NCBI GenBank assembly: GCA_027013225.1
Contig: JALUXU010000060.1
Coordinates: forward strand, 1-37,423
DNA length: 37,423 bases
From: Acidihalobacter sp.
GTDB taxonomy: Bacteria > Pseudomonadota > Gammaproteobacteria > DSM-5130 > Acidihalobacteraceae
Direction of reading: 5' to 3'
Shown piece after piece: positions 15,960-37,051 of this stretch. The position numbers were made by a program, and so were the translations under genes. Position 1 is the first letter of the stretch; every line of letters starts with the position of its first letter. The notes under the pieces are model-generated. The model saw only the letters and a list, made by a program, of their open reading frames with translations, was not told where the DNA came from and searched no databases.

Positions 15960-16000
15960 ACAATCCTCTCATAAAGCCCGATCGTTCATTGGAGACAAAG

Positions 16001-16672
16001 ATGCATCTTGAACTTATCAGTTTTAAACTCTGCCCGTTCGTCCAACGCAGCGTGATTACATTACTCCATAAAAAAGCGCCGTTTGACATAAGCTATATTG
16101 ATCTCTCCGAACCACCCGCATGGTTTTTCAAAATCTCCCCTTTCAGACGGGTTCCCGTATTGAGAGTGGATGATAAAACCGTATTGTTCGAATCTGCGAT
16201 CATTAATGAATTCATCGATGATGTCACCGCCGGCAGCTTGATGCCGGCCGATCCGTTGCAAAAAGCGCAAAACCGCGGGTGGATACAGTTCGGCGAACAA
16301 TGTCTGGTGGATCAATACCATCTGAGCACAGCCGAGAATGGAAAAAGCTGGGAAGAATCGCTCGCAAAAGCCCATCACAACCTTGCCAAGATTGAAGGCA
16401 TGCTGGGCGAAGGCCCTTATTTCAATGGTGAGAGTTTCTCCCTGGTCGACGCTGCATTCGCTCCCTTGTTCATGCGCTATGCTCTTTGGCCGCGAACCCT
16501 CGGCGCACTCCCCTCAGAAGAATTCCCGCGCCTTGTTTCCTGGTCAAAAACGCTTCTTGGCCTGCCAGAAGTGCAACAGTCGGTGGTGGACGATTTCCAC
16601 CTGCTGTACGCTGAACATATCCGGGAACATGGTGGTTATCTGGCGAACGCGTTTCCAGTCAACAGCCGGTGA
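16001..16672 (+). CDS. glutathione S-transferase family protein
   Basis: Cytosolic thioredoxin-fold transferase of 223 residues. The N-terminal domain has a CPF motif at the active-site position (SFKLCPFVQRSV), the cis-Pro region FRRVPVLRVDD, and the glutathione gamma-Glu-binding motif FESAIINEFIDD. The C-terminal helical domain has FNGESFSLVDAAFAPLF. The cysteine-type active site suggests an omega/SspA-like thiol transferase rather than a classical detoxifying GST (inference). The ATG at 16001 is preceded by GGAG; the longer frame starts at TTG. A distant paralogue occurs at 28294. Confidence 0.88.
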   Translation: MHLELISFKLCPFVQRSVITLLHKKAPFDISYIDLSEPPAWFFKISPFRRVPVLRVDDKTVLFESAIINEFIDDVTAGSLMPADPLQKAQNRGWIQFGEQCLVDQYHLSTAENGKSWEESLAKAHHNLAKIEGMLGEGPYFNGESFSLVDAAFAPLFMRYALWPRTLGALPSEEFPRLVSWSKTLLGLPEVQQSVVDDFHLLYAEHIREHGGYLANAFPVNSR

Positions 16673-24285: not shown

Positions 24286-24348
24286 CTTGGGATCTGCGGA
24301 CCACTCCGGAGGCTTCATCATGGCAAGTTTGGGGTGTCTGTTTTTGAT

Positions 24349-24377
24349 TTGACACAGCCCGCTTCGCAGATTATATT
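24349..24377 (+). promoter_or_regulatory. strong sigma-70 promoter of the ArsR-rhodanese operon
   Basis: TTGACA (24349-24354) and TATATT (24372-24377) are 17 bases apart, close to the ideal promoter. A start of transcription near 24384 leaves a leader of about 22 bases to the ATG at 24406. A small inverted repeat ATCT-TT-AGAT follows the -10 and could be part of an operator. Confidence 0.7.
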
Positions 24378-24405
24378 CTATCAATCTTTAGATCGTTTTA
24401 TTATC

Positions 24406-25071
24406 ATGGCTGAACGTGAAATTAAGGATTTGCTTTACGCCCAGGTGGCCCGCATTGGCAAGGCGGTTGCCAGCCCCAAACGCCTGGAACTGATCGAGCT
24501 GCTTGCCCAGGCGGAAAAGCCTGTTGATCAGTTGGCTGCAGAGGCCGCGATTTCCGTCAAGCTGGCCAGCGCGCACCTCAAGGAACTACGCCAGGCCCGT
24601 TTGGTCGAGACACGGCGGGAAGGCAAGCGCGTGTTTTATCGTCTCGCCGATCGTAGTGTGGCGGATTTTTGGGTGAGTATCCGATCACTGGCCGAGGCGC
24701 ATTTGCTGGAACTGAAGAATGCGCTCGCCAGGATGTCGGAAGATGCCGCACAACTGACCCCGATCGACCGGTCGCAGATGCTTGAACTGGCCAGGCGCGG
24801 CGAGATCGTCGTGCTAGACGTGCGTCCCAAGCTGGAATTCAGTGCCGGTCACCTGCCGTACGCACTTTCCATGCCGCTCGCCGAAGTTCGCAAACGCCTG
24901 GCGGAGCTGCCGCACGACAAGCCCATCGTGGCGTATTGCCGCGGGCCATTCTGCGTGATGGCCAAGGAGGCCGTGACCTTGTTGAACCGGGAAGGTTACC
25001 GCGCTACGCGCATCGAAGACGGGGTGGCGGAGTGGCGAGCGCAAGGTCTGCCGGTCGAGGAAGTGCTGTGA
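24406..25071 (+). CDS. ArsR-family regulator fused to a rhodanese domain
   Basis: A 221-residue transcription factor with an N-terminal winged HTH of ArsR type (IGKAVASPKRLELIELLAQ, AISVKLASAHLKELRQARLVETRREGKRVFYRLAD) and a C-terminal rhodanese domain (VVLDVRPKLEFSAGHLPYALSMPL, then the active-site loop AYCRGPFCVMAKEA). The only cysteines in the whole protein are Cys178 and Cys183 of that loop, so sensing most likely happens there by persulfide or polysulfide formation. That differs from the two HTH-domain cysteines of SqrR/BigR (family knowledge plus inference). Start at ATG 24406 fits the promoter; the longer frame from 24334 would cover it. The next genes encode a persulfide dioxygenase and a transporter, the likely targets. 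Confidence 0.9.
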   Translation: MAEREIKDLLYAQVARIGKAVASPKRLELIELLAQAEKPVDQLAAEAAISVKLASAHLKELRQARLVETRREGKRVFYRLADRSVADFWVSIRSLAEAHLLELKNALARMSEDAAQLTPIDRSQMLELARRGEIVVLDVRPKLEFSAGHLPYALSMPLAEVRKRLAELPHDKPIVAYCRGPFCVMAKEAVTLLNREGYRATRIEDGVAEWRAQGLPVEEVL

Positions 25072-25165
25072 ACCGAGTTCAATGACGCATGCAGGCAACA
25101 AAAATATGATCCCTGGCCATTAAAGTTGGCTGCCCGTAAAACTTTTCCATTGAGGAGGAGAGACC

Positions 25166-25921
25166 ATGTTTTTCAGACAACTACCCACCAAGGATGCCAC
25201 TTTGTCCTACCTGTTCGGCTGCAGTTCCTGCCACGTGGCCGTGGCCGTCGACCCCGTGCTGGGAGACGAAGACTGGTTCATTGAGGAAGCCCGCAAGCAG
25301 GATGTTCATATCACGCATGTCATCGATACCCATATCCATGCTGACCATTACTCCGGCAGCCGCTCGCTAGCCGAACGCAGCGGCGGCACGTATTGCCTGC
25401 ATGAGGCGAACCTAGGCAACGTGCAATTCGGTTTCGAGCCGTTGGCGGATAAACAGCGCATCGAGGTAGGCAACGTCGCCATCGACGTGCTGCACACACC
25501 CGGACATACGCCGGATTCGATATGCCTGCTGGTCACTGACAAGCGCCGCGGCGATCAACCCTGGTTCGTGCTGACCGGAGACACACTGTTCGTGGGCGCA
25601 GTGGGTCGCCCGGATCTTGCGGGCAGAGAGGTCGAAATGGCCGGCCAACTCTGGGACAGCCTGCATGGAAAATTACTGGATCTACCCGATGAAACGGAAA
25701 TCTATGCAGGACATGTGGCGGGCAGCGTGTGCGGCGCCGGCATTTCGGGAAAACCCGGCTCGACGCTCGGTTTCGAGAAACGCTGGAACCCATTGCTGGG
25801 CTTGCCCCGAGATGCCTTTATCGAAGCCTTGACCCAGGAAATCCCGCCACGTCCAGCCGAAATGGATCGCATGGTCGAGGTCAATCTGGGACTCAAACCG
25901 CCCCCCTCCGTAACAGATTGA
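25166..25921 (+). CDS. persulfide dioxygenase-like MBL-fold hydrolase (ETHE1/Blh type)
   Basis: Non-heme iron enzyme expected to oxidise glutathione persulfide to sulfite plus glutathione. The 251 residues show the metal-binding THIHADHYSG (about residues 54-63), HTPGHTPDS, TGDTLFVGAVGRPDL and YAGHVAGSVCGAGISGKPGSTLGFEK, the C-terminal segment typical of ETHE1-type and bacterial Blh proteins. GAGGAGGAGAG precedes the ATG. It lies 94 bases after the ArsR-rhodanese gene and nine before the MFS gene, forming a sulfide/persulfide detoxification operon. A glyoxalase II role is less likely given this neighbourhood. Confidence 0.88.
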   Translation: MFFRQLPTKDATLSYLFGCSSCHVAVAVDPVLGDEDWFIEEARKQDVHITHVIDTHIHADHYSGSRSLAERSGGTYCLHEANLGNVQFGFEPLADKQRIEVGNVAIDVLHTPGHTPDSICLLVTDKRRGDQPWFVLTGDTLFVGAVGRPDLAGREVEMAGQLWDSLHGKLLDLPDETEIYAGHVAGSVCGAGISGKPGSTLGFEKRWNPLLGLPRDAFIEALTQEIPPRPAEMDRMVEVNLGLKPPPSVTD

Positions 25922-25930
25922 GGCATTGCG

Positions 25931-27241
25931 ATGAATTTCGATTCCGCCTCGAGTCAGGACGAAACCCACCGGCGCGGCATTCGGCTCAATGCCCCGCAAT
26001 TTCTCATGCAGGCCCTGCAGGTGGTGTTCGTCGGTCTGACCCTGGGCACCGAGCGTACCGTGCTGCCGACCCTGGCCTCTGATTTCGGCGTGTCCAAAGG
26101 AGCCTTTCTGTGGCTGGCCTCCTTCGTCATCGCCTTCGGTTTCGTCAAGGGACTCGTGAATTTCGCTGCCGGCGCCATGGCCGACCGCATCGGCCGCAAA
26201 AGGGTGCTGCTACTCGGCTGGCTGGCGGCCTTACCGATCCCTTTCCTGTTGCTGTATGCGCAGAACTGGGGCTGGGTCGTCATCGCGAACGTCTTCCTCG
26301 GCATCAGCCAGGGACTGGCCTGGTCGGTCACCGTGATTAGCATGGTGGATCTGGCGCGTACAGATCAAAGAGGTCTCGCGGTGGGGATCAATGAGTTCGG
26401 TGGGTATGCCGCCATGGGCGTAGCCGGGCTGGCGACAGGTATCCTGGCGGCCACTTACGGTCCGCGAGTCGCACTGTTCGGGTTTTCACTGGGGGTGATT
26501 CTGCTCGCCGCGCTGACTACCCTCTGGTTTGTGCGCGAGACGCGGGGATTCGCCCATGCCGAGAGCCGCGCTCACCGGGAAGGACGCCACGACGGCCCGA
26601 AAGCGCGGATTCCGCAAACCCGCACCGAAGAACCCGGAGTTTGGGAGATATTCCTGCTGGTGTCATTCCGCCACCCCACCCTGCGTGCGCTCAGCCAGGC
26701 CGGCGTGATCAACAAGGTGGCCGATACGCTGGTATGGATTCTGTTTCCGCTCTACATGCATCAGCGTGGTCTTGGCCTGGTGGACATCGGCTGGGTGACC
26801 GGCGTCTACGCAGCGGTATGGGGCGCTTCGCAATTGTGGAGCGGGCCGCTGTCCGACCGCATCGGGCGCAAGTGGCTGATCGCCTGGGGCCTGTGGCTGG
26901 TAGCGCTGGGCGTTCTGGGTGTGTTACTGCTCGACGGGCTTGCTCTGTGGCTCGCCAGCGCCGTGGTCATGGGTATCGGGATGGCCATGCTCTATCCCAA
27001 CATCATCGCAGCGGTCAACGACATCTCAGACCCCAGATGGCGCGGTGCGTCCCTGGGTGCCTATCGCTACTGGCGTGACACGGGCTATGCCATCGGCGGA
27101 CTGATTCTTGGCGGGGTCGCCCAGCTCAGCGACCATGTCACGCCCGCATTCTGGGTCACACTGGCGCTATTGCTGCTGTCCGGTGCCTGGGTAGCTTTCG
27201 GAAGCGAGGAAACCCATCCGCGGATCAACCCATCCAATTGA
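25931..27241 (+). CDS. MFS transporter
   Basis: A 436-residue major facilitator superfamily protein with about twelve membrane segments in two halves. The loop after helix 2 carries GAMADRIGRKRVLLLGW, and the matching loop in the second half is GPLSDRIGRKWLIAWG, both the MFS signature. A hydrophilic middle loop (RAHREGRHDGPKARIPQ) separates the halves. It follows the persulfide dioxygenase gene by nine bases with GAGG before the ATG, so it is co-transcribed and may export a sulfur compound such as sulfite or a thiol (inference). A terminator-like hairpin follows. Confidence 0.9.
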   Translation: MNFDSASSQDETHRRGIRLNAPQFLMQALQVVFVGLTLGTERTVLPTLASDFGVSKGAFLWLASFVIAFGFVKGLVNFAAGAMADRIGRKRVLLLGWLAALPIPFLLLYAQNWGWVVIANVFLGISQGLAWSVTVISMVDLARTDQRGLAVGINEFGGYAAMGVAGLATGILAATYGPRVALFGFSLGVILLAALTTLWFVRETRGFAHAESRAHREGRHDGPKARIPQTRTEEPGVWEIFLLVSFRHPTLRALSQAGVINKVADTLVWILFPLYMHQRGLGLVDIGWVTGVYAAVWGASQLWSGPLSDRIGRKWLIAWGLWLVALGVLGVLLLDGLALWLASAVVMGIGMAMLYPNIIAAVNDISDPRWRGASLGAYRYWRDTGYAIGGLILGGVAQLSDHVTPAFWVTLALLLLSGAWVAFGSEETHPRINPSN

Positions 27242-27283: not shown

Positions 27284-27547
27284 TCATCGTTCAAGCTCGT
27301 GTTTGAGCACTTGCATCATGCGCTCCAGCATGGATTGTGCGAGCGCCTTGCGATCGGCTGGCTCGAGTTCGGAAAACATCATATTCATGCAGCGAGGCAT
27401 CATGTTCTGCATGAACTCCATCCGGTCTTCGGGCTGCATCTCCTTGAACACGCTGTCCATCATGGATTCCATCATGCGCGGCATGTCCTCGGGCTTCATC
27501 ATCCCCGACATCATCTTTTCCATCACTTTCTGCATGGTATCCTTCAT
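27284..27547 (-). CDS. methionine-rich hypothetical protein with MMxxMM and CMNMM motifs
   Basis: An 87-residue cytoplasmic protein with 23 methionines, often paired: KMMSGMMK, RMMESMMD, QNMMPRCMNMMFS, ERMMQ. The single Cys lies in CMNMM. There is no signal peptide or hydrophobic membrane helix; the pattern suggests amphipathic helices with one Met-lined face. Methionine clusters bind soft metals such as Cu(I), Ag(I) or Hg(II) in other proteins (general knowledge); binding here is inference. Its ATG overlaps the stop of the methyltransferase gene (ATGA), so the two are translated together. The tiny protein at 29116 shares the CMxMM motif, which suggests one family. Confidence 0.75.
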   Translation of the reverse strand: MKDTMQKVMEKMMSGMMKPEDMPRMMESMMDSVFKEMQPEDRMEFMQNMMPRCMNMMFSELEPADRKALAQSMLERMMQVLKHELER

Positions 27548-28167
27548 CGTTCTTCCTCCGGTTGTGGCGCATTGATCTTGCGAAAGATCGCGCCGTAGTG
27601 ATAAGGCCCAACGTCGACAACCCTTTCCAATGTGAATCCGGCAGGCTCCACCACCTTTTGCACATCCTCTGGTTCCATCCTCAGCCCGGTATCGGGCCCA
27701 CGCGGTTGTCCCAGCACGGTGGTCTCCTCGCGCGGGCGACGATACCAGTTGACGATGGCAAACCGGCCATCGGGTTTCAGGGCGCGGTGGACGGCCTGCG
27801 CCAACCCGGTCTTATCGGGTACGCCATGGAAGGTATTGGCGATGAACACGAAATCCACCGGCTCTTCGATCAGCTCGGGCAGTTGGCGGGCATCACCCAA
27901 AATGGCCTGAAAGTTCGGACAACCCTCGCAGGCCGCCTCCGCCTGCGCGAGCAGATCGGCATCCAGATCCACGGCCCAGGTTTGGCCGGAATGCGCGATC
28001 TCGCACATGGGCCGGGTGAAATGGCCGTCTCCACAGCACAAGTCCACGACCTGCATGCCGGGTTCGATACCGATCGTGCTCAGAACCGCGTCTGGATTCG
28101 GCCAAAGGGCCTGCCACCAGTCCTTGTCCGGCATGAGCGTGGCGGGAAAAAGTGCATCGTCATTCAT
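27544..28167 (-). CDS. class I SAM-dependent methyltransferase
   Basis: A 207-residue methyltransferase with the Rossmann SAM motif I as MQVVDLCCGDGHFTRPM, motif II-like TWAVDLDADLLAQAEAAC, FQAILGDARQLPEL, and VDFVFIANTFHGVPDKTGLA. Four cysteines lie in or near the SAM domain (CCGDG, CEIAH, CEGC-type pair). That recalls, but does not match, the three-Cys arrangement of arsenite methyltransferases, so I do not call it ArsM. ATG 28167 has GGAG nine bases upstream; the longer frame starts at TTG. It heads a two-gene operon with the Met-rich protein and faces the GST gene across an operator-like palindrome. Confidence 0.85.
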   Translation of the reverse strand: MNDDALFPATLMPDKDWWQALWPNPDAVLSTIGIEPGMQVVDLCCGDGHFTRPMCEIAHSGQTWAVDLDADLLAQAEAACEGCPNFQAILGDARQLPELIEEPVDFVFIANTFHGVPDKTGLAQAVHRALKPDGRFAIVNWYRRPREETTVLGQPRGPDTGLRMEPEDVQKVVEPAGFTLERVVDVGPYHYGAIFRKINAPQPEEER

Positions 28168-28208
28168 GTTGCGCGCTCCGTTTGACATCAAAACTGAATT
28201 TGGACAGG

Positions 28209-28231
28209 ATATGCGAAATCGCTCATATATG
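28209..28231. promoter_or_regulatory. operator-like palindrome, copy 1 (methyltransferase / GST intergenic)
   Basis: Read on the minus strand, this site contains CATATATGAGCGATTTCGC followed by ATAT, with a GCGA-TT-TCGC core and ATAT arms. It matches the site before the ArsR gene at 29215 in 19 of 23 bases. On the minus strand it lies between TTGACC and CATATC (18-base spacing), a plausible promoter for the methyltransferase. On the plus strand TTGGAC precedes it, a plausible -35 for the GST. It is probably bound by the ArsR at 29236 (inference). Confidence 0.65.
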
Positions 28232-28293
28232 GGTCAACACATGCAGGATCATGGTGGCTCTCGATAAATACTCTGCCAGGAGGTGAACCTGTG

Positions 28294-28950
28294 ATGACCC
28301 TGCACTTCTACTACAACGATGTTTGTCCCTTCGCTTACCGTGTACGGTTGGCGCTGGCAGAGAAGGCCATCCCCCACGAGGCGCAGATCATCGACCTGCA
28401 GAACATCCCGGACTGGTACGCCGACATCTCGCCCACCGGCAAGGTGCCACTGCTGAAATACGGTGACGACGTGGTCTGGGAAAGCACGGTCATCAATGAA
28501 TTCCTGGAAGATGTCTTTCCCGACCCGCCCCTGCTGCCCCGAAATCCGGTCGTCCGGGCTCATACCCGTATCTGGATTGAGTACTGCAACAGCACCTTTC
28601 AGCCCAACTGCTGCGGCCTGGTGTTCGAACTGGACGAGAGCAAACACGAAGCCATCCGTACTGCGCTGTTGGACAGCCTGACAACCATCGAGAAAACGCT
28701 TTCCGAAACCACGGGACCCTATTGGTTGGGCAACCAAATCAGCCTCGTGGATCTGACCTACTATCCCTTCTTCGAGCATATGCCGGCATTGACCGAATAC
28801 CGCGGATTCGAACTACCGAAATCCCTGTCCAGGGTTCACCGCTGGCTCGAAGCCATGCAGACGCGCCCCTCGGTGCAGGTCAACCGGCAGCCACCCGCGT
28901 TCTATATCGAGGCCTACAAGCCCTATGTAGAGGGTAGAATGGACAAGTAG
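28294..28950 (+). CDS. glutathione S-transferase family protein
   Basis: A 218-residue thioredoxin-fold transferase. It has an active-site CPF (YYNDVCPFAYRVR), the cis-Pro segment TGKVPLLKYGDD, the glutathione-binding WESTVINEFLEDV, and the helical-domain LGNQISLVDLTYYPFFEH. A perfect AGGAGGT precedes GTG 28291 and ATG 28294; I prefer the ATG. It is a distant paralogue of the GST at 16001, with the same CPF and INEF(I/L)(D/E)DV patterns. Its position, facing a methyltransferase operon across an ArsR-type palindrome, suggests a stress- or metal-induced thiol transferase (inference). Confidence 0.88.
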   Translation: MTLHFYYNDVCPFAYRVRLALAEKAIPHEAQIIDLQNIPDWYADISPTGKVPLLKYGDDVVWESTVINEFLEDVFPDPPLLPRNPVVRAHTRIWIEYCNSTFQPNCCGLVFELDESKHEAIRTALLDSLTTIEKTLSETTGPYWLGNQISLVDLTYYPFFEHMPALTEYRGFELPKSLSRVHRWLEAMQTRPSVQVNRQPPAFYIEAYKPYVEGRMDK

Positions 28951-28960
28951 GTAGCAGGCA

Positions 28961-29116
28961 TCAGGACGCGCCTTCGGCGCCTTCCTGCCGTGACTCCAGA
29001 GCCCGGCCGCTTTCAGGCCGACTGGCTTCCTCCGATTTACCGTCGTTCATCATGTCCATGCACTTTTCCTTGTTGGCAGGGGCCATGTTGGCCATCATCT
29101 CTTTGCACATCTTCAT
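28961..29116 (-). CDS. tiny Met/Cys-rich protein with duplicated CxxMM motif
   Basis: A 51-residue protein starting MKMCKEMMANMAPANKEKCM, with two Cys-x-x-Met-Met units (CKEMM and CMDMM) 14 residues apart, then a hydrophilic Glu/Ser-rich tail. The second unit matches the CMNMM of the Met-rich protein at 27284. AGGAGA lies about 11 bases before the ATG at 29116. A longer frame to 29173 has no ribosome site. No signal peptide is visible. It is divergent from the ArsR gene across an operator-like site, so it is probably metal-induced. It resembles no family I can name. Confidence 0.6.
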   Translation of the reverse strand: MKMCKEMMANMAPANKEKCMDMMNDGKSEEASRPESGRALESRQEGAEGAS

Positions 29117-29214
29117 CGCGCCGCGTTCTCCTGTATCGGTTCGGCGAATCGCTCCTCGGCGTGTCTTTGACAAGCTGCGTCGGATTGACGATCATGGATC
29201 TAATTGAGCATCAA

Positions 29215-29240
29215 CACATATGAGCGATACCGCACATGAG
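29215..29240. promoter_or_regulatory. operator-like palindrome, copy 2 (upstream of ArsR gene)
   Basis: CACATATGAGCGATACCGCA followed by CATGAG. It repeats the site at 28209-28231 (19 of 23 aligned bases) and overlaps the ArsR start codon at 29236. A further CATATG half-site follows at 29249. It is probably an autoregulatory site that also serves the divergent Met/Cys gene. Confidence 0.6.
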
Positions 29241-29574
29241 TAGTAACGCATATGACTGTGGTTCTGTCAAGCCTCTGAGTGAACTCTTCAAGCTGCTGGC
29301 CGAGCCCAACCGCCTGAAGATCCTCTGTAGCCTGGGTCTGGAGTGCCGGCCGGTTTCGGATGTGGTCGAAGCCACCGGTCTCAGCCAGACCAATGTTTCA
29401 TTCCATTTGCGCCTCCTTCGGGAAGCGCATCTGGTGCGTGCGGAACGGCGCGGACCATTTGTTTATTACTGTTTATACGATCCCAATTTGCTGGCCATAC
29501 TCGATCAGATGCGAAAGTGGTTGGAGGCGCATGAAGCCACAATGGGTGAAGAATCAATCCGGCGTGCCAAGTAA
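29236..29574 (+). CDS. ArsR-family transcriptional regulator
   Basis: A 112-residue winged-helix repressor: ELFKLLAEPNRLKILCSLGLEC, then the recognition region VSDVVEATGLSQTNVSFHLRLLREAHLVRAERRGPFVYYCLYD. The CVC metal site of CadC/ArsR alpha-3 is not present; cysteines occur at the N-terminus (DCGS), in ILCSLGLEC and in the wing (YYCLYD), so its inducer-binding site may be a new arrangement. No Shine-Dalgarno is seen and the start codon lies inside the palindromic site. Likely regulator of the surrounding methyltransferase, Met-rich and GST genes (inference from shared sites). Confidence 0.88.
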   Translation: MSSNAYDCGSVKPLSELFKLLAEPNRLKILCSLGLECRPVSDVVEATGLSQTNVSFHLRLLREAHLVRAERRGPFVYYCLYDPNLLAILDQMRKWLEAHEATMGEESIRRAK

Positions 29575-29657
29575 GGTCTGAAAAACAAGCGAGAAAAGGG
29601 GGAATACGACAGGCGGATACGTCTCAATGGCGGTTGACGGTGGAATCTCATTCAATT

Positions 29658-30053
29658 ATGTTCGAAAATATGAAATCGAAATCGATCAATCCTGCCGAAG
29701 TCACTGCGTACGTCTGCGCCATCGAATGCTTCCACCCGCGCACCGTGGCGCGGGTTCAGGAGGCGCTGGCAGACGACGCGGAACGCCTGGCGGCCGGCGC
29801 CGAACTGTTCAAGATGCTTGGCAATCCGAAGCGCGTGCTGATTCTGCGCGCTCTGCGCGAAGCGGAGTTGTGCGTCTGCGACCTGGCCCATCTGCTCGGT
29901 CTGAGCGTGGCGGCGACCTCTCAGCAATTGCGTATCCTGCGTGCGCAGGGCTGGTTGCGCATGCGCAGCGTGGGCAAGATGGTGTATTACCGCTGGCACG
30001 AGGCACCGCCCCTGCCTAATCTCGACGCGGCGTTACGGGTATTGGGCGCATGA
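29658..30053 (+). CDS. CadC/SmtB-like ArsR-family metal sensor
   Basis: A 131-residue regulator with an N-terminal cysteine pair (AYVCAIECFHP) and the alpha-3 metal motif ELCVCDLAHLLGLSVAATSQQLRILRAQGWLRMRSVGKMVYY. This combination is that of CadC-type sensors of Cd(II), Pb(II) and Zn(II) (family knowledge). Starts at 29658 or 29670 are both possible and neither has a clear ribosome site; a TTCGAA-centred imperfect palindrome spans them (about 29650-29672), and TTGACG/TATGTT (29634/29657) could be the promoter. It overlaps the permease gene by four bases (ATGA). Confidence 0.88.
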   Translation: MFENMKSKSINPAEVTAYVCAIECFHPRTVARVQEALADDAERLAAGAELFKMLGNPKRVLILRALREAELCVCDLAHLLGLSVAATSQQLRILRAQGWLRMRSVGKMVYYRWHEAPPLPNLDAALRVLGA

Positions 30054-31156
30054 ACCTTGTCGACGCCATCTGGCCGACCCTGGTGCATTGGCTGGCCAAC
30101 ACCTGGGGCCTGTTCCTGGAGGCCGCGCCCTGGGTGATGCTAGGCCTGATCTGCGCCGGCCTGATCAAGGCCTGGATTTCACAGGAACGGATGGCGCGCT
30201 GGCTGGGCGGCTGAGGCGCATGGCCGGTAACCAAGGCCGCGCTGATCGGCGCGCCGCTGCCGTTGTGCTCGTGCAGCGTGATTCCGGTCGCGCTGGGTTT
30301 GCACCGTGCCGGTGCCTCGCGCGGCGCCACCCTTTCGTTTCTGATCGCCACGCCCGAGACTGGCGTGGATTCCGTGGCGACTTCGTTCGCTCTGCTGGGG
30401 CCGTTCATGACCGTCGTTCGACCGCTCAGCGCGATCATGAGTGCCATCGTGACCGGCCTGCTGGGGAGTCTGGCCGGGCCGGTGACACATTCGCCTGCCG
30501 AGGGCAAGCGCCAGGCCGACAGGAAGGATTGCGATTCGGCTGCGTACTCGACAGGCGCACCGGCAAGCGCGGTAACGGACGCGCCAGACGCTTGCGAGGC
30601 AACGACCTGCGGCTGCGAATCCGCCGCTCTCGGACAAGACGCCGATGCCGGCGTTTGGCGGCGCTCCGCTGCGGGGCTTCGCTATGCGGTCACCGACCTG
30701 CTCGACGAATTCAGTCTGTGGATGGCGCTCGGCCTGGCGCTGGCGGGACTGACCATGACGGTAGTCTCCCCCACCGCGCTCGGCGCATACGGCAGTGGCT
30801 GGCCCGCCTTGCTGCTGATGCTGCTCGCCGGCGTTTCGCCCGGCGCGGTGCTGGTGTTCCTGCTGGCCGGCCCGGCGACCAACCTGGGCACAGTCGGCGC
30901 CTTGCGGCAGGCCTTCGGCGGGCGCTTCGTGGTGGTTTATCTCGGCGGCATCAGCGCCTGCGCGATTGGTTTCGGATGGCTCACCAATGCCCTAGTGCAG
31001 GCTCTGCACATCGACATCGGCGCTCAGATCCAGGCCAGCGCCGAGCTGCTGCCGGCCTGGGTGAAGCTGGGCTGCGCCGTGGCCCTGGCAGCGCTGGCCC
31101 TGCGCCCCCTGCGTCGCCGCCTGCCCGGCCTGACTCCGGCACGGACGGCCGCCTGA
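30050..31156 (+). pseudogene. SO_0444/DUF318-type permease interrupted by an in-frame TGA
   Basis: Predicted heavy-metal efflux permease (ArsP_1/DUF318 superfamily; the SO_0444 group is linked to Cu/Zn). The frame starts at ATG 30050, coupled to the CadC-like gene. It reads AAPWVMLGLICAGLIKAWIS and ARWLGG, meets TGA at 30212-30214, and then continues in the same frame as GAWPVTKAALIGAPLPLCSC to 31156. The rest is intact: the CSCSVIP motif, a Cys-containing hydrophilic loop (EATTCGCES) and LAGPATNLGTVGALRQAFGG. The family usually has Arg (CGA-type codon) where TGA stands, so a single C-to-T change explains it. Readthrough, reinitiation at a downstream GTG, or a sequencing error are alternatives. 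Confidence 0.75.
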
Positions 31157-32435: not shown

Positions 32436-33779
32436 TTATCCGTAGGCCAGTTTCTGATACACCGTTTCAAAGGCCTGAAGTGAACGGCAACCTTTGCCAA
32501 AGCCTATCTTGATGTAGCGCGATGTTCGGATGATGCGTGCGGCAACATACATCAGCTCTTGCATCACTGTCTTGATCCGTCGCCTTTTCGCTTTGTTGCG
32601 TTTCGGAGACGTTGGACCCAACAAGCCGTTTTGCCCAATCCAGCGCAGGATATTGTAGGCCAGCACACTGGCTCCCAATACTAACGCATTGGTGGCGAAT
32701 TTCCCGGAGGGCAAGCGTTCGATATCCATGTCAGTTTTAAATTCGCTGTGGAACTGTTCCGATGTACCATGATCTGCATAAAGCTGAATGATATCGCCTT
32801 CACTGATGTCCAGGCTTGTCCACCATCCTTCAAGATCAATCTCGGGAACCAGCAATATCTGCCCCTGTTTATCAATGGTTCTTTCAGTGAGACGAATGAC
32901 CTGCCGTACCGAATACTCATAACCTTGCCATTGCCGCGAAACCTGCAGACTGAAAGTGGCTATCCGCTTGCCTTCCCGTGGCTCTTCCCATCGTCCTTTT
33001 TGTTCCGCAAGCTCAAGCCAATAGGCTTTGTCCTGTTTGCGGGGATTCCATTTGATGAGGAAATCAACAGGGGACTGGGTTTTATGGTCTTCGCTGTGCT
33101 CGAGGATGACGTCGATGTTCTCGATGGAATCGTTGCCACCATCGAGCCTGAGCAAAAGGGGCTGCGTTGTGATTTTCCGGGCCTGTCGCAAGGTCTTTGC
33201 CAGCAAGGCCGGTGTGTCTTTCTGGCAATGCTGCTTGCCTTCACGAAAGTCAAAGCCGATACAATAGCCTTCCTGGCCGAGGTATACCGCCATGGGGGCA
33301 AACCCGTCATGTCCCTTATAGGTTCTCGATACGCCTTCTTTGTGGCTGCCCGAATTATCCATCGGGGTCACATCGGCATCGATCGGAATATGTCCGGTGG
33401 GCAAGGGCCGTAGCGTCGGTTGGATAGTGCTCAGAAAATCCCGGCTGGCTTGCTCGACGATGGGCAAAAAGTGTTCCGCATGTTTATCCATGCGTTGGCG
33501 CAGTGTCGCTTCGCAAGGGATGTCATTGATATCCATCGCGCTCATGAAAGAGAATTCACTCTCAATGGTATTGATGGCCTCAAAATCGTTTTTTCCGATA
33601 CTCAGTAATGCCAGGTAGCTCTTGATGACATCAGAATGCTTGATGCCATGGCGTAACGGGATGCTTGCATCCAGCTGGCTACTCAGCTTCGTGTGGCGCT
33701 TTATGGCCTGACCGATCAGTGCCAGGCCACTGTGGCTGATGATATCTGCATCTGATTGTTCAATTTTGAAGCGCTTCAT
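32436..33779 (-). CDS. IS1380-family transposase
   Basis: An apparently intact DDE transposase of 447 residues. Recognised by IPLRHGIKHSDVIKSYLALL, the first-Asp region IPIDADVTPMDNSGSHKEGV, GKQHCQKDTPALLAKTL, LLRLDGGNDS (second Asp) and YADHGTSEQFHSEFKTDMDIERLPSGKF with the catalytic Glu, then the C-terminal GCRSLQAFETVYQKLAYG. It fills most of the element and lies inside matching terminal repeats, so the element could still be mobile. Confidence 0.95.
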   Translation of the reverse strand: MKRFKIEQSDADIISHSGLALIGQAIKRHTKLSSQLDASIPLRHGIKHSDVIKSYLALLSIGKNDFEAINTIESEFSFMSAMDINDIPCEATLRQRMDKHAEHFLPIVEQASRDFLSTIQPTLRPLPTGHIPIDADVTPMDNSGSHKEGVSRTYKGHDGFAPMAVYLGQEGYCIGFDFREGKQHCQKDTPALLAKTLRQARKITTQPLLLRLDGGNDSIENIDVILEHSEDHKTQSPVDFLIKWNPRKQDKAYWLELAEQKGRWEEPREGKRIATFSLQVSRQWQGYEYSVRQVIRLTERTIDKQGQILLVPEIDLEGWWTSLDISEGDIIQLYADHGTSEQFHSEFKTDMDIERLPSGKFATNALVLGASVLAYNILRWIGQNGLLGPTSPKRNKAKRRRIKTVMQELMYVAARIIRTSRYIKIGFGKGCRSLQAFETVYQKLAYG

Positions 33780-33875
33780 TTTTTCACTGACTGAGTGACC
33801 ATTTCGAGAGCATCTATTTTAGCAATATAGCCTATAAATTACGGCTATTTATCCCATCATAATGGCCTGCTAAGT

Positions 33876-33887
33876 TACGGATTCAGG
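33876..33887 (-). repeat. IS1380 right terminal inverted repeat
   Basis: TACGGATTCAGG, reverse complement of the left repeat. This end is upstream of the transposase gene and 68 bases before the mcrB start. Confidence 0.85.
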
Positions 33888-33955
33888 TAAAAAACAGATT
33901 ATGAAACCAATCATCGTAGATCTGATGGTGTTGCATAGAGAAATAAGGGGCTGAA

Positions 33956-35599
33956 ATGAAAAGCAGACTGAAGAATCTTTACAAATACCTGATTGAAAAC
34001 CGGAAACACGAAGTCAAAGGCTGGCATGATGCCTATCGTGAGTTTTACGGTCAGGTCGGGCAAATCCGTGAACGCATCAAATCAGGAGAGGGTTTGTCTC
34101 AAACTGACAAGGCTTTCCTGAAGCAGCTCCTCTATGAAAAAAGTAACGGAATCGCTTCTCGCGGCCAGTCTGTTTTAAGCAACGAAAACTTTCAGGCTTT
34201 CATCAAAAACAAGGATTTCATATCCGCGCTGGAAGGATTTATCCTGGCTCCCAACAAAGAGAACTTCAGAAAATTTGACGATGCGTGGTCTGCCCAAGGC
34301 AAGTCTAACAATCCAGTTCTTGTAAATCGTGTGGCAGCAGCCTGCACGCTCGAAGTCTCCACTACTGTTGATTCCGGTAAGTTTAATCAGGTCTTCAGCT
34401 GGCTTATACGTGAAGGAATTATCCCGGCATATCCGGCAGAAGAGGATCAGGATTGGTTTTCAAAAAACAATTTCCTGCTGAAGATCATTAAGAACGAGTT
34501 TCGTGATGAACTTCAGGGCAACAAAACGGATGAATTTTATCTAAGCATGTTGGTCTGGGAGATCTATGCGAACCTGTCCAATCCGTTTAACCTGAAAAAA
34601 CAGATCATTAAATACGGTCCCCCCGGAACCGGGAAGACATACCAAGCTCGCCAGCAAACGGAGCTACTGTTTGATATTTGGCAAGAGGAGTTCGATCCGA
34701 ACAGTAATTTTGAATATGCAAGCCAGACTGAGCTGGTGCAATTCCATCCTTCTTTCAGTTATGAAGACTTCATGGAGGGCTTACGCCCCGTTCTGGATGG
34801 TAATGGAACCGCGCAGCTGACGTTGCAAAATGGTGTTTTCAAGGAATTCTGCCGAAACGCCGGTAAGTGGGAAATCGATGTTTGCCGCCTTGGTCTCGAT
34901 CGGGACTGGGAATCAATCACGATCGATGAGCTCCGTCCCCTTAAAGAAAAATTAAAAGGTGATCACTGGCAGTACATCTTCGAAATCTCAGACGCATCCA
35001 AGCTAGTATCCGATGCTGTGCCGCCATTCTTCTTTATAATCGATGAAGTGAACCGGGCTGAGTTGTCTCGGGTTTTTGGTGAGCTGATGTATTGTCTGGA
35101 ATATCGAGGCATTAAGGGCAGCGTCAAAACCCAATATGCCAATCTGAATAACGAACACACTGGCATGCGTCAGACCGATCAAGGGTACCTGTTCTTCATT
35201 CCGTCAAATATCTATCTGATCGGAACGATGAACACGATTGACCGAAGCGTGGAAAGTTTTGATTTCGCTCTCCGACGCAGATTCCGCTGGGAAGAAGTAA
35301 CGCCGGATACAGGGCTGTTGAGGTACTATCTGAGCCAGTTCTGCAAATCCTGGGTCCCTCTGGCGGATAACCTTGAACGACTGAACACCCAGATAGCCAA
35401 AGAGCCTTTGCTGGGTCATGATTATCAAATCGGTCATGCCTATTTGATGAACTTGAAATATGCCACCAGCCTTACGGTTGCGGAAGTAAGAGAGCGTGTC
35501 TGGGATGATTGTATCCGGCCTTTGTTACAGGAATATCTGCGCGGTACCGGCAAGGAGGCTGAGCTCATCGGTTCTTTCGGAAAGGCATTCGGGGTTTAA
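33956..35599 (+). CDS. mcrB: McrB-type AAA+ GTPase of a McrBC restriction system
   Basis: Motor subunit of a modification-dependent (type IV) restriction enzyme. The 547 residues consist of an N-terminal region of about 215 residues with no domain I can name, then a AAA+ GTPase domain. That domain has Walker A GPPGTGKT (residues 221-228), VQFHPSFSYEDFMEGLRP, Walker B-type FFIIDEVNRAELSRVFGEL, and the McrB signature GTMNTIDRSVESFDFALRRRF. Start ATG 33956 has AAGGGG five bases upstream. The N-terminal part should set target recognition. An IS1380 element ends 68 bases upstream, which may have displaced or replaced its promoter. mcrC follows after three bases. Confidence 0.93.
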   Translation: MKSRLKNLYKYLIENRKHEVKGWHDAYREFYGQVGQIRERIKSGEGLSQTDKAFLKQLLYEKSNGIASRGQSVLSNENFQAFIKNKDFISALEGFILAPNKENFRKFDDAWSAQGKSNNPVLVNRVAAACTLEVSTTVDSGKFNQVFSWLIREGIIPAYPAEEDQDWFSKNNFLLKIIKNEFRDELQGNKTDEFYLSMLVWEIYANLSNPFNLKKQIIKYGPPGTGKTYQARQQTELLFDIWQEEFDPNSNFEYASQTELVQFHPSFSYEDFMEGLRPVLDGNGTAQLTLQNGVFKEFCRNAGKWEIDVCRLGLDRDWESITIDELRPLKEKLKGDHWQYIFEISDASKLVSDAVPPFFFIIDEVNRAELSRVFGELMYCLEYRGIKGSVKTQYANLNNEHTGMRQTDQGYLFFIPSNIYLIGTMNTIDRSVESFDFALRRRFRWEEVTPDTGLLRYYLSQFCKSWVPLADNLERLNTQIAKEPLLGHDYQIGHAYLMNLKYATSLTVAEVRERVWDDCIRPLLQEYLRGTGKEAELIGSFGKAFGV

Positions 35600-35602
35600 A
35601 TC

Positions 35603-37051
35603 GTGTGGCTGTTCGATATCATAAAGAACGGAACTCTGGTCGATAACCAGTCTTATTTGGTCAATCAAGGCATCTTGACCAATAGGCGTTTGGGTGAATC
35701 GATTACCCTCAGCACCAAATCAAAAGGCCAGTGGACCTATCCTCATAACGACGAGTCTGCTATTTGGCATTTTTTGAATTCGGTTTCTCGTGATGTCGAA
35801 AAAACGCTGACTGACAACATTGCCGATGCACTCATCCTCTTCAATGATGAAGATTACGAACACAACACCGACGGCGGCTTTATCGGTGTAACCGGTACCG
35901 ATGCCAGAAACTTCAATCTCAATACAGGCAATCTGATTGGGTTTGTCAAACGTGGCGATTATTCCCTGAAGATCAGCTCCCGGTTTGGTGATGCTTTCCT
36001 TCAGTACATCATTGCCGATGCCGATGGGTTTCTCGAACTGGAAAACATTGGCGGAGAAAGCCACGGTGATGGATATGAGTGGCTCCTTGCATATCTTTGG
36101 AATATCAAATTCAAAAGAGCTTACCGGCTGGGGCTTCCCAAGACCTACATTACAAAGAATGATCGGATTTCCCGCGTTCGCGGAACAATCGATGCGGTTG
36201 ATTACTTCCGAAACAAAACCTCCGGCAAATATCTGTGCTCCTACCGTGAACACAGCTACGACAGCCCTGCGACCTCACTTTTCATCAAAGCCTATGAGGC
36301 GGTTGAGCACTACTCTTTTTGCCAGCGAACAAGGAATGTCTACAATGCGTTTCTAACCGCTAATCAGGGTGTGAAAAGATCCCGTCAGGAAATTTTGAGA
36401 ACACCGTATTTCACCAACCCCTTCTACAACGACTATAACGTGCTGATAGATCTGTCGAAGCAAGTCATCAGCCAGCAAGGTTCTGATTTTGACTCCCAGC
36501 ATGATTCGAGCGCCTTCTTTTTCGATATATCGATGCTTTTCGAATATTTCATCCGGAAACTCATCAAGCGTAATGGAGTCCGGCTGCTTAGCAAGTTCGA
36601 GCAACGTTATGAAATACCGGCGGGTGCGCTCGGCAGCTACATGCGCAAACTTGAACCGGACCTTGTTTTTGAGAGTGATGGCGGCCTGTACGTCTTTGAT
36701 GTGAAGTATAAAGCCTTTGACCCACAATTCGGGGTCAAGCGGGAGGATCTTTTCCAGCTGCACACATACATAGGCCAGTATGGGAATGAAGCCGCTATAA
36801 ACGGGTGTGGCTTTGTTTACCCGATATCTGAAAAGAGATGGGATGCACTCAATCTAGATAAAAATCAGGGGCTAATATCAGATGTCATTCGCCAGCAAGG
36901 GCAAGAGATCCCGTTTCATGTCCTTTTCCTGAAAATCCCTAACAATAAATCTCGTGAGTTTAACAGGCTCATGAACAAACAGTGTCGTATGTTCATTGAT
37001 ACTATCCAGTCGAAAATACTGATTAAGGAGAAGATTGCTGCATGGGCATAG
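35603..37051 (+). CDS. mcrC: McrC nuclease subunit
   Basis: Endonuclease partner of McrB. The 482-residue protein has an N-terminal McrB-interacting region and a C-terminal PD-(D/E)xK nuclease domain with candidate catalytic residues Asp353 (RKLEPDLVFESDGGLYVF), Asp366 and Lys368 (DVKYK). The segments FLELENIGGESHG and RISRVRGTIDAVDYFRN fit the family. Start is GTG at 35603, three bases after the mcrB stop. The gene is intact up to a TAG that overlaps another possible start codon, and an IS3-type element begins about 30 bases later. Confidence 0.92.
   Translation: MWLFDIIKNGTLVDNQSYLVNQGILTNRRLGESITLSTKSKGQWTYPHNDESAIWHFLNSVSRDVEKTLTDNIADALILFNDEDYEHNTDGGFIGVTGTDARNFNLNTGNLIGFVKRGDYSLKISSRFGDAFLQYIIADADGFLELENIGGESHGDGYEWLLAYLWNIKFKRAYRLGLPKTYITKNDRISRVRGTIDAVDYFRNKTSGKYLCSYREHSYDSPATSLFIKAYEAVEHYSFCQRTRNVYNAFLTANQGVKRSRQEILRTPYFTNPFYNDYNVLIDLSKQVISQQGSDFDSQHDSSAFFFDISMLFEYFIRKLIKRNGVRLLSKFEQRYEIPAGALGSYMRKLEPDLVFESDGGLYVFDVKYKAFDPQFGVKREDLFQLHTYIGQYGNEAAINGCGFVYPISEKRWDALNLDKNQGLISDVIRQQGQEIPFHVLFLKIPNNKSREFNRLMNKQCRMFIDTIQSKILIKEKIAAWA

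Follow-up and report, generated by a model that had tools for sequence, protein, structure and literature searches.

A conserved and, in the literature searched, apparently undescribed regulon of five genes was found in the window, the 37,423-nt stretch of Acidihalobacter sp. DNA analysed here. The genes (Table 1) encode a SAM-dependent methyltransferase (MT), a Met-rich protein (MetRich), a GST-like protein (GST), a Met/Cys peptide and an ArsR/SmtB-family repressor (ArsR). That they share a regulon, with one ArsR, one operator and several divergent units, is well supported by sequence comparison, because the operator is conserved in orthologues, recurs at the MT/GST region and is missing from MT copies of ArsR-free genomes. 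The module is a real defence circuit, and its control site is found next to these genes in many other bacteria from sulfidic, metal-rich environments. Our leading explanation, a tentative one, is that all five belong to a single ArsR regulon that regulates itself and protects against a thiophilic (thiol-reactive) agent, the likeliest being a soft metal(loid) as in mercury- and arsenic-rich sulfidic habitats.

Organization of the genes

The five genes proposed in an earlier, sequence-only reading were all open reading frames at the positions it gave. One start was revised: the Met/Cys peptide had been begun at a TTG codon (29173), which was replaced by 29116, the most likely start, behind AGGAGA. 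Relative to the sister species, an in-frame deletion (29037–29060) removes the third Cys of this peptide, and in relatives the full Met/Cys-DUF302 proteins are likewise divergent from arsR. The MT and MetRich genes overlap by 4 bp (27544–27547) and therefore form one transcription unit. GST diverges from MT, and the Met/Cys peptide gene from arsR. The first codon of GST is a GTG, with an ATG next at 28294. A TTGACA element was present at the position equivalent to the probable arsR promoter in many orthologous upstream sequences; a promoter scan at the MT/GST site found no consensus promoter. Elsewhere in the window, a second GST-like gene (15989–16672, + strand) is about 32% identical to the first, and positions 32436–37051 hold a transposase (DDE_Tnp_1_4) followed by a McrBC-like restriction pair.

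Table 1. Genes and regulatory sites of the module, with positions in the window.
Feature	Position	Strand	Basis
MetRich, Met-rich protein, 87 aa	27284–27547	-	ORF
MT, class I SAM-dependent methyltransferase, 207 aa	27544–28167	-	ORF and Methyltransf_25 profile
GST, Cys-type GST-like protein (CPFAYR), 219 aa	28291–28950	+	GST_N_2, E 6.5e-19
Met/Cys peptide, 51 aa (MKMCKEMM...)	28961–29116	-	ORF; shortened relative of Met/Cys-DUF302 proteins
ArsR/SmtB-family repressor, 112 aa	29236–29574	+	HTH_5 and NF033788 over cut-off
Operator 1, ATATGAGCGATTTCGCATAT, dyad ATATG-N10-CATAT, between MT and GST	28209–28228	-	
Operator 2a, ATATGAGCGATACCGCACAT	29218–29237	+	
Operator 2b, second dyad ACATGAGTAGTAACGCATAT, overlaps 2a, includes arsR start codon	29234–29253	+	
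Probable arsR promoter, TTGACA-17-GATCAT	29167–29195	+	10 of 12 consensus bases; mean of 0.3 expected

The operator

The sequence-only reading had claimed that the same palindrome-like site lies in both divergent intergenic regions. In an ungapped alignment, 28209–28231 and 29215–29237 were identical at 19 of 23 bases, as claimed, and both were exact matches to the pattern ATATGAGCGATNNCGCAYAT. When up to three mismatches were allowed, this pattern gave three matches in the window, against 0.02 expected from dinucleotide shuffles. The site was also infrequent elsewhere: the 2.27-Mb genome has no exact copy of the core ATGAGCGATNNCGCA besides these two. Two further single-mismatch matches starting ATATGAGC (C17:732 and C52:4501) were inside coding sequence and were rejected as operators. 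The similarity of the 20-bp core is beyond chance expectation.

On the arsR side the operator proved larger than first described. The second dyad, ACATGAGTAGTAACGCATAT, runs into arsR codons 1–6; it has two mismatches to the search pattern and was the top-scoring site with the family matrix. The dyad occurs at arsR in two or three overlapping copies with a 16-bp period, so that each half-site between two dyads serves both, and the last dyad includes the arsR ATG. The common form in orthologues was ATATGAG(T/C)N5C(G/A)CATAT, at about -34, -18 and -2 of arsR. The N-terminus MSSNAY or MSINAY of many ArsR orthologues is encoded by operator sequence (29236–29253), and its conservation may therefore come from the DNA site rather than from the protein.

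Conservation of the operator and linkage of the genes

With one genome taken per species, orthologous arsR genes with the same operator were found at about 64 other loci, in vent and sulfur-oxidising Gammaproteobacteria (Thiohalobacter, Sedimenticola, Acidithiobacillus), Rhodobacteraceae, Aurantimonas and others. Of 70 loci, 66 had a family-matrix score above 9 in the sequence preceding arsR (mostly 18–32), a partly circular result as the matrix was built from, and refined on, the same family of loci. Sixteen paralogous ArsR loci (L156–L171) scored below 14, with weak related dyads, and scores on shuffled sequences were weak. A less circular test was provided by the 816 kb surrounding the 70 loci, where 10 of the 11 site clusters away from arsR were at the MT promoter or the MT/GST intergenic region; a mononucleotide-shuffled version of the 816 kb gave no operator matches. 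Sites equivalent to operator 1 were present in nine further loci. No operator site was found at the MT copies of ArsR-free lineages (G059, G087 and G175), at the second MT copy of G004 or at the window's own MBL-MFS operon. The mer operon in L037 was not under the operator, and a MerR-family gene adjoins it.

These data bear on whether the window simply holds two independent neighbouring systems, the similarity of their sites being due to chance or to a generic ArsR box. Half-sites of the ATATG/CATAT type are frequent in ArsR/SmtB operators, and the weak dyads at the paralogue loci fit such a box. Against it stand the low expected count in the window and the MT/GST site itself, which is conserved in 10 loci yet missing where MT occurs without ArsR; independence is highly improbable.

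Among 369 Gammaproteobacteria, 15 genomes had an ArsR orthologue (E below 1e-22), 15 had MT and nine had MetRich. ArsR and MT were together in 10 of 15 genomes (p 7e-13), and MetRich was present only in genomes with MT (9/9); a search for MetRich on plasmids gave none. MT adjoins ArsR in about half of the roughly 64 loci. GST was found in about eight of 70 loci (the window, L037, L092, L093, L095, L097, L100 and L102) and is therefore an optional member. In addition to the five original genes, a SHOCT protein belonged to 16 loci, and a third Met-rich protein, whose end resembles a winged helix, was encoded downstream of MetRich in L093, L202 and L203. The ArsR tree had few columns and many open forks, so that only the clustering of contexts could be read from it. 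The scan of relatives for the site and for gene co-occurrence, which the sequence-only reading had proposed, thus came out in favour of its view that one ArsR would control all five genes: the operator is kept at arsR across genomes, the ArsR-MT linkage is significant, and MT copies in genomes without ArsR carry no site.

Sequence features of ArsR

ArsR matched HTH_5 at 41.2 bits (cut-off 22) and NF033788 at 79.4 bits (cut-off 55), placing it in the ArsR/SmtB family, and Foldseek matched its winged-helix fold to SmtB, CzrA and SqrR. Two cysteines, C37 and C79, were invariant in the alignment (49/49). In the AlphaFold model (pLDDT 90), C37 is directly ahead of beta1 and C79 is in beta3, and from the winged-helix fold the two are predicted to face each other.

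The known sensor sites were looked for in the aligned orthologues. The CxC As(III) motif of the E. coli type (ELCVCDL, alpha3) was absent, with LECRPVSD or a similar sequence in its place. For the alpha5 zinc ligands of SmtB/CzrA, no invariant Asp, His or Glu was present at residues 84–111 of the alignment (A2). Persulfide sensors are defined by two conserved cysteines, Cys50 and Cys116 of sHdrR, in alpha2 and alpha5. By eye, the first of these aligns with Cys31 of ArsR, which is present in 37 of 49 sequences; no conserved Cys was found in alpha5, where the characterised sulfane-sulfur ArsR sensors have theirs (PMC12423496).

Sequence features of the MT, Met-rich and GST-like proteins

MT belongs to a conserved family (Methyltransf_25, E 1e-15), with C45 as the sole invariant Cys among 27 orthologues. 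Against the ArsM profile (NF008823) it scored 34.4 bits, the curated cut-off being 263. The best narrowly named (equivalog) resemblances of ArsR and MT were, respectively, TsoR (NF045707; 74.1 bits, curated cut-off 115) and the DVU_1556-family methyltransferase (NF045667; 52 bits, curated cut-off 155), yet both scores were far below the cut-offs. Judged from the profiles, the module is a variant of ArsR-controlled detoxification that corresponds to no known system by any curated profile tested.

MetRich forms a conserved family (12 aligned sequences) with one invariant Cys (MMPRC). Its AlphaFold model (pLDDT 82) has four helices; the PDB fold search gave no match, and no Pfam or NCBIfam family was over cut-off. 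The CPFAYR motif of GST was invariant in seven orthologues, and the nearest solved structures were DHAR, omega GST and pyrimidodiazepine synthase. From its thioredoxin-fold N domain with a CPxx motif, GST is assigned to the Cys-type (omega/DHAR-like), with catalysis predicted.

Nature of the proposed thiophilic agent

A response to soft metals, as the sequence-only reading had it, was partly supported: the co-occurrence of mercuric reductase (MerA) spoke for it and the gene contents of related loci spoke against it. MerA was far commoner with the module, in 17 of 20 genomes against 16%. True MerA was found in 13/15 genomes with ArsR, 14/15 with MT and 9/9 with MetRich, compared with 73/369 overall, the genomes not being phylogenetically independent. 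Two other origins of this link were rejected. A general metal-island origin was dismissed on the negative control with the arsenite pump ACR3, which was not enriched (7/20 module genomes versus 18–19/60), and an origin in sulfur oxidisers on the persistence of the MerA enrichment inside both the SoxB+ and the SoxB- strata. A shared habitat may be the source of the correlation. Genes or operons of mer were within about 10 kb of the module in three genomes (G004, G001 and G302), and ArsM-family methyltransferases adjoin ArsR or MT in L058, L121 and L154. In G087 (L198, 4052–7132), an MT copy without ArsR or operator is part of an arsenosugar biosynthesis cluster, between ArsS and two arsenosugar glycosyltransferases (TIGR04283 and TIGR04282). 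Counting against a soft metal are the missing CxC and alpha5 metal sites of ArsR and the low ArsM score of MT; moreover, the genes under the operator in other ArsR branches are of sulfur type (MBL, DUF302-TauE and SQR), not metal genes.

Next to the module, the window holds a second ArsR (29634–30053, with ELCVCDL) and an ArsP-type permease gene (30050–31156, + strand). In the sister species (L037) this ArsP gene is intact and encodes 389 aa; in the window it is cut short by a premature stop, part of its interior is missing, and it is therefore probably a pseudogene. An MtrA-like corrinoid-protein homologue was near the module in genomes from acid mines and vents (L202, L139 and L131); in L202 it was accompanied by MerC-like, thioredoxin-like and CcdA-like genes and an ArsR2 homologue.

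There is a real possibility that the same regulon and operator instead respond to reactive sulfur (sulfide, persulfide or polysulfide). Sulfane sulfur would then link C37 to C79, as it does the differently placed cysteines of SqrR-type sensors, and the substrates that MT would S-methylate are sulfide or thiols. Eight loci of a distinct ArsR branch have the operator between arsR and a divergent MBL-MFS pair, whose MBL is closest to persulfide dioxygenase and MBL-rhodanese structures. The divergent operon of L109, L110 and L115 consists of Met/Cys-DUF302, TauE and MetRich, and in L153 an SQR-III-like gene is directly downstream of arsR. Haloarchaeal MT homologues are found with TusA, an FAD/NAD(P) oxidoreductase, DsrE, MBL and YeeE/YedE, and many hosts are sulfur oxidisers by name. 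Set against this, SoxB was weakly enriched (p 0.04 and 0.01) and MerA strongly, the alpha5 Cys of the sulfane-sulfur sensors is missing from ArsR, and the MBL-MFS operon of the window is without an operator site.

The window region 24334–27241 contains ArsR-rhodanese, CstB/ETHE1-like MBL and MFS genes; homologues of its MBL-MFS genes (25166–27241) are those directly divergent from the ArsR orthologue in relatives. On haloarchaeal megaplasmids (L191, L192, L193 and L195), the MT homologue (42–46% identity) is in DUF2892-MT units, mostly with TusA and the FAD/NAD(P) oxidoreductase next and DUF302 genes near.

It is quite improbable that oxidants (reactive chlorine or peroxide) are the signal for the regulon, with a C37-C79 disulfide, Met-rich proteins oxidised in place of other targets and GST acting like a dehydroascorbate reductase or thioltransferase. 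Consistent with oxidants, an ArsR-SHOCT pair (56% identity), its ArsR an orthologue, is directly downstream of the chlorate reductase operon on an Ideonella dechloratans plasmid (L196, 9989–10611), a Rhizobium MT homologue is near an OxyR-like LysR gene and katG, and in five loci ArsR has DJ-1/PfpI-like genes downstream. The contexts in Ideonella and Rhizobium each occur once, however, and methionine sulfoxide reductase was not recognised as a recurrent neighbour.

Genome statistics favour the metal and operon contents favour sulfur; we lean slightly towards a soft metal(loid), with sulfur close behind. Metal, reactive sulfur and oxidants are all thiophilic chemistry.

Discussion

Comparison of sequences established that the operator is shared and conserved, that the genes are linked and that the cysteines are invariant; repression, derepression by Cys modification, the substrate and the inducer are what we infer. 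In our leading explanation, ArsR would bind the ATATG-N10-CATAT dyads, which overlap in tandem where arsR starts and stand alone in the MT/GST region, and would thereby repress its own gene along with those for the Met/Cys peptide, MT-MetRich and GST. The agent would react with Cys37 and Cys79 (plus Cys31 where present) and so release the repressor. MT may methylate a soft nucleophile, which could be a metalloid species, a chalcogen species or a thiol carrying either, while the Met- and Met/Cys-rich proteins would buffer the agent and the Cys-type GST would carry out glutathione-dependent reduction.

The sequence-only reading knew of no described system with this combination of genes, and literature searches on the combination and on TsoR likewise found nothing relevant. 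Among the closest known systems are the ArsR-arsM and ArsR-ArsP operons for arsenic detoxification, with which the module has in common an ArsR-family repressor beside a SAM methyltransferase; ArsM-family genes are present in some module loci, and in the window an ArsR-ArsP pair adjoins it (29634–31156). The module differs in an ArsR without the CxC As site, an MT far below the ArsM cut-off and the addition of Met-rich proteins and GST. With the BigR/SqrR/sHdrR regulons it shares the ArsR fold, two conserved cysteines and, in relatives, persulfide-dioxygenase-like and sulfur genes beside the same operator, but its cysteines are elsewhere, and the methyltransferase, Met-rich proteins and GST are new. 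A small Met-rich protein in a stress regulon is also a feature of Met-rich scavenger peptides such as the periplasmic hypochlorite scavenger of perchlorate reducers (Melnyk 2015, cited in PMC9751292); the proteins here differ in having a conserved Cys and no export signal evident by eye.

A wider proposal, which we consider rather unlikely, is that ArsR represents a new class of sensor reading thiophilic stress via two cysteines (C37 by beta1 and C79 in beta3) where the DNA-binding wing has its base. It would act within a novel mode of defence in which a soft element is methylated with SAM and this is coupled to Met-rich buffer proteins and a glutathione enzyme, a strategy spread among bacteria of mercury-rich sulfidic habitats.

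The operator and the two cysteines of the regulon are precisely defined, which makes the module sharply testable. It is relevant to how vent and acid-mine bacteria handle soft metals or persulfides, and to the role of a recurring orphan methyltransferase that is also present in haloarchaea.
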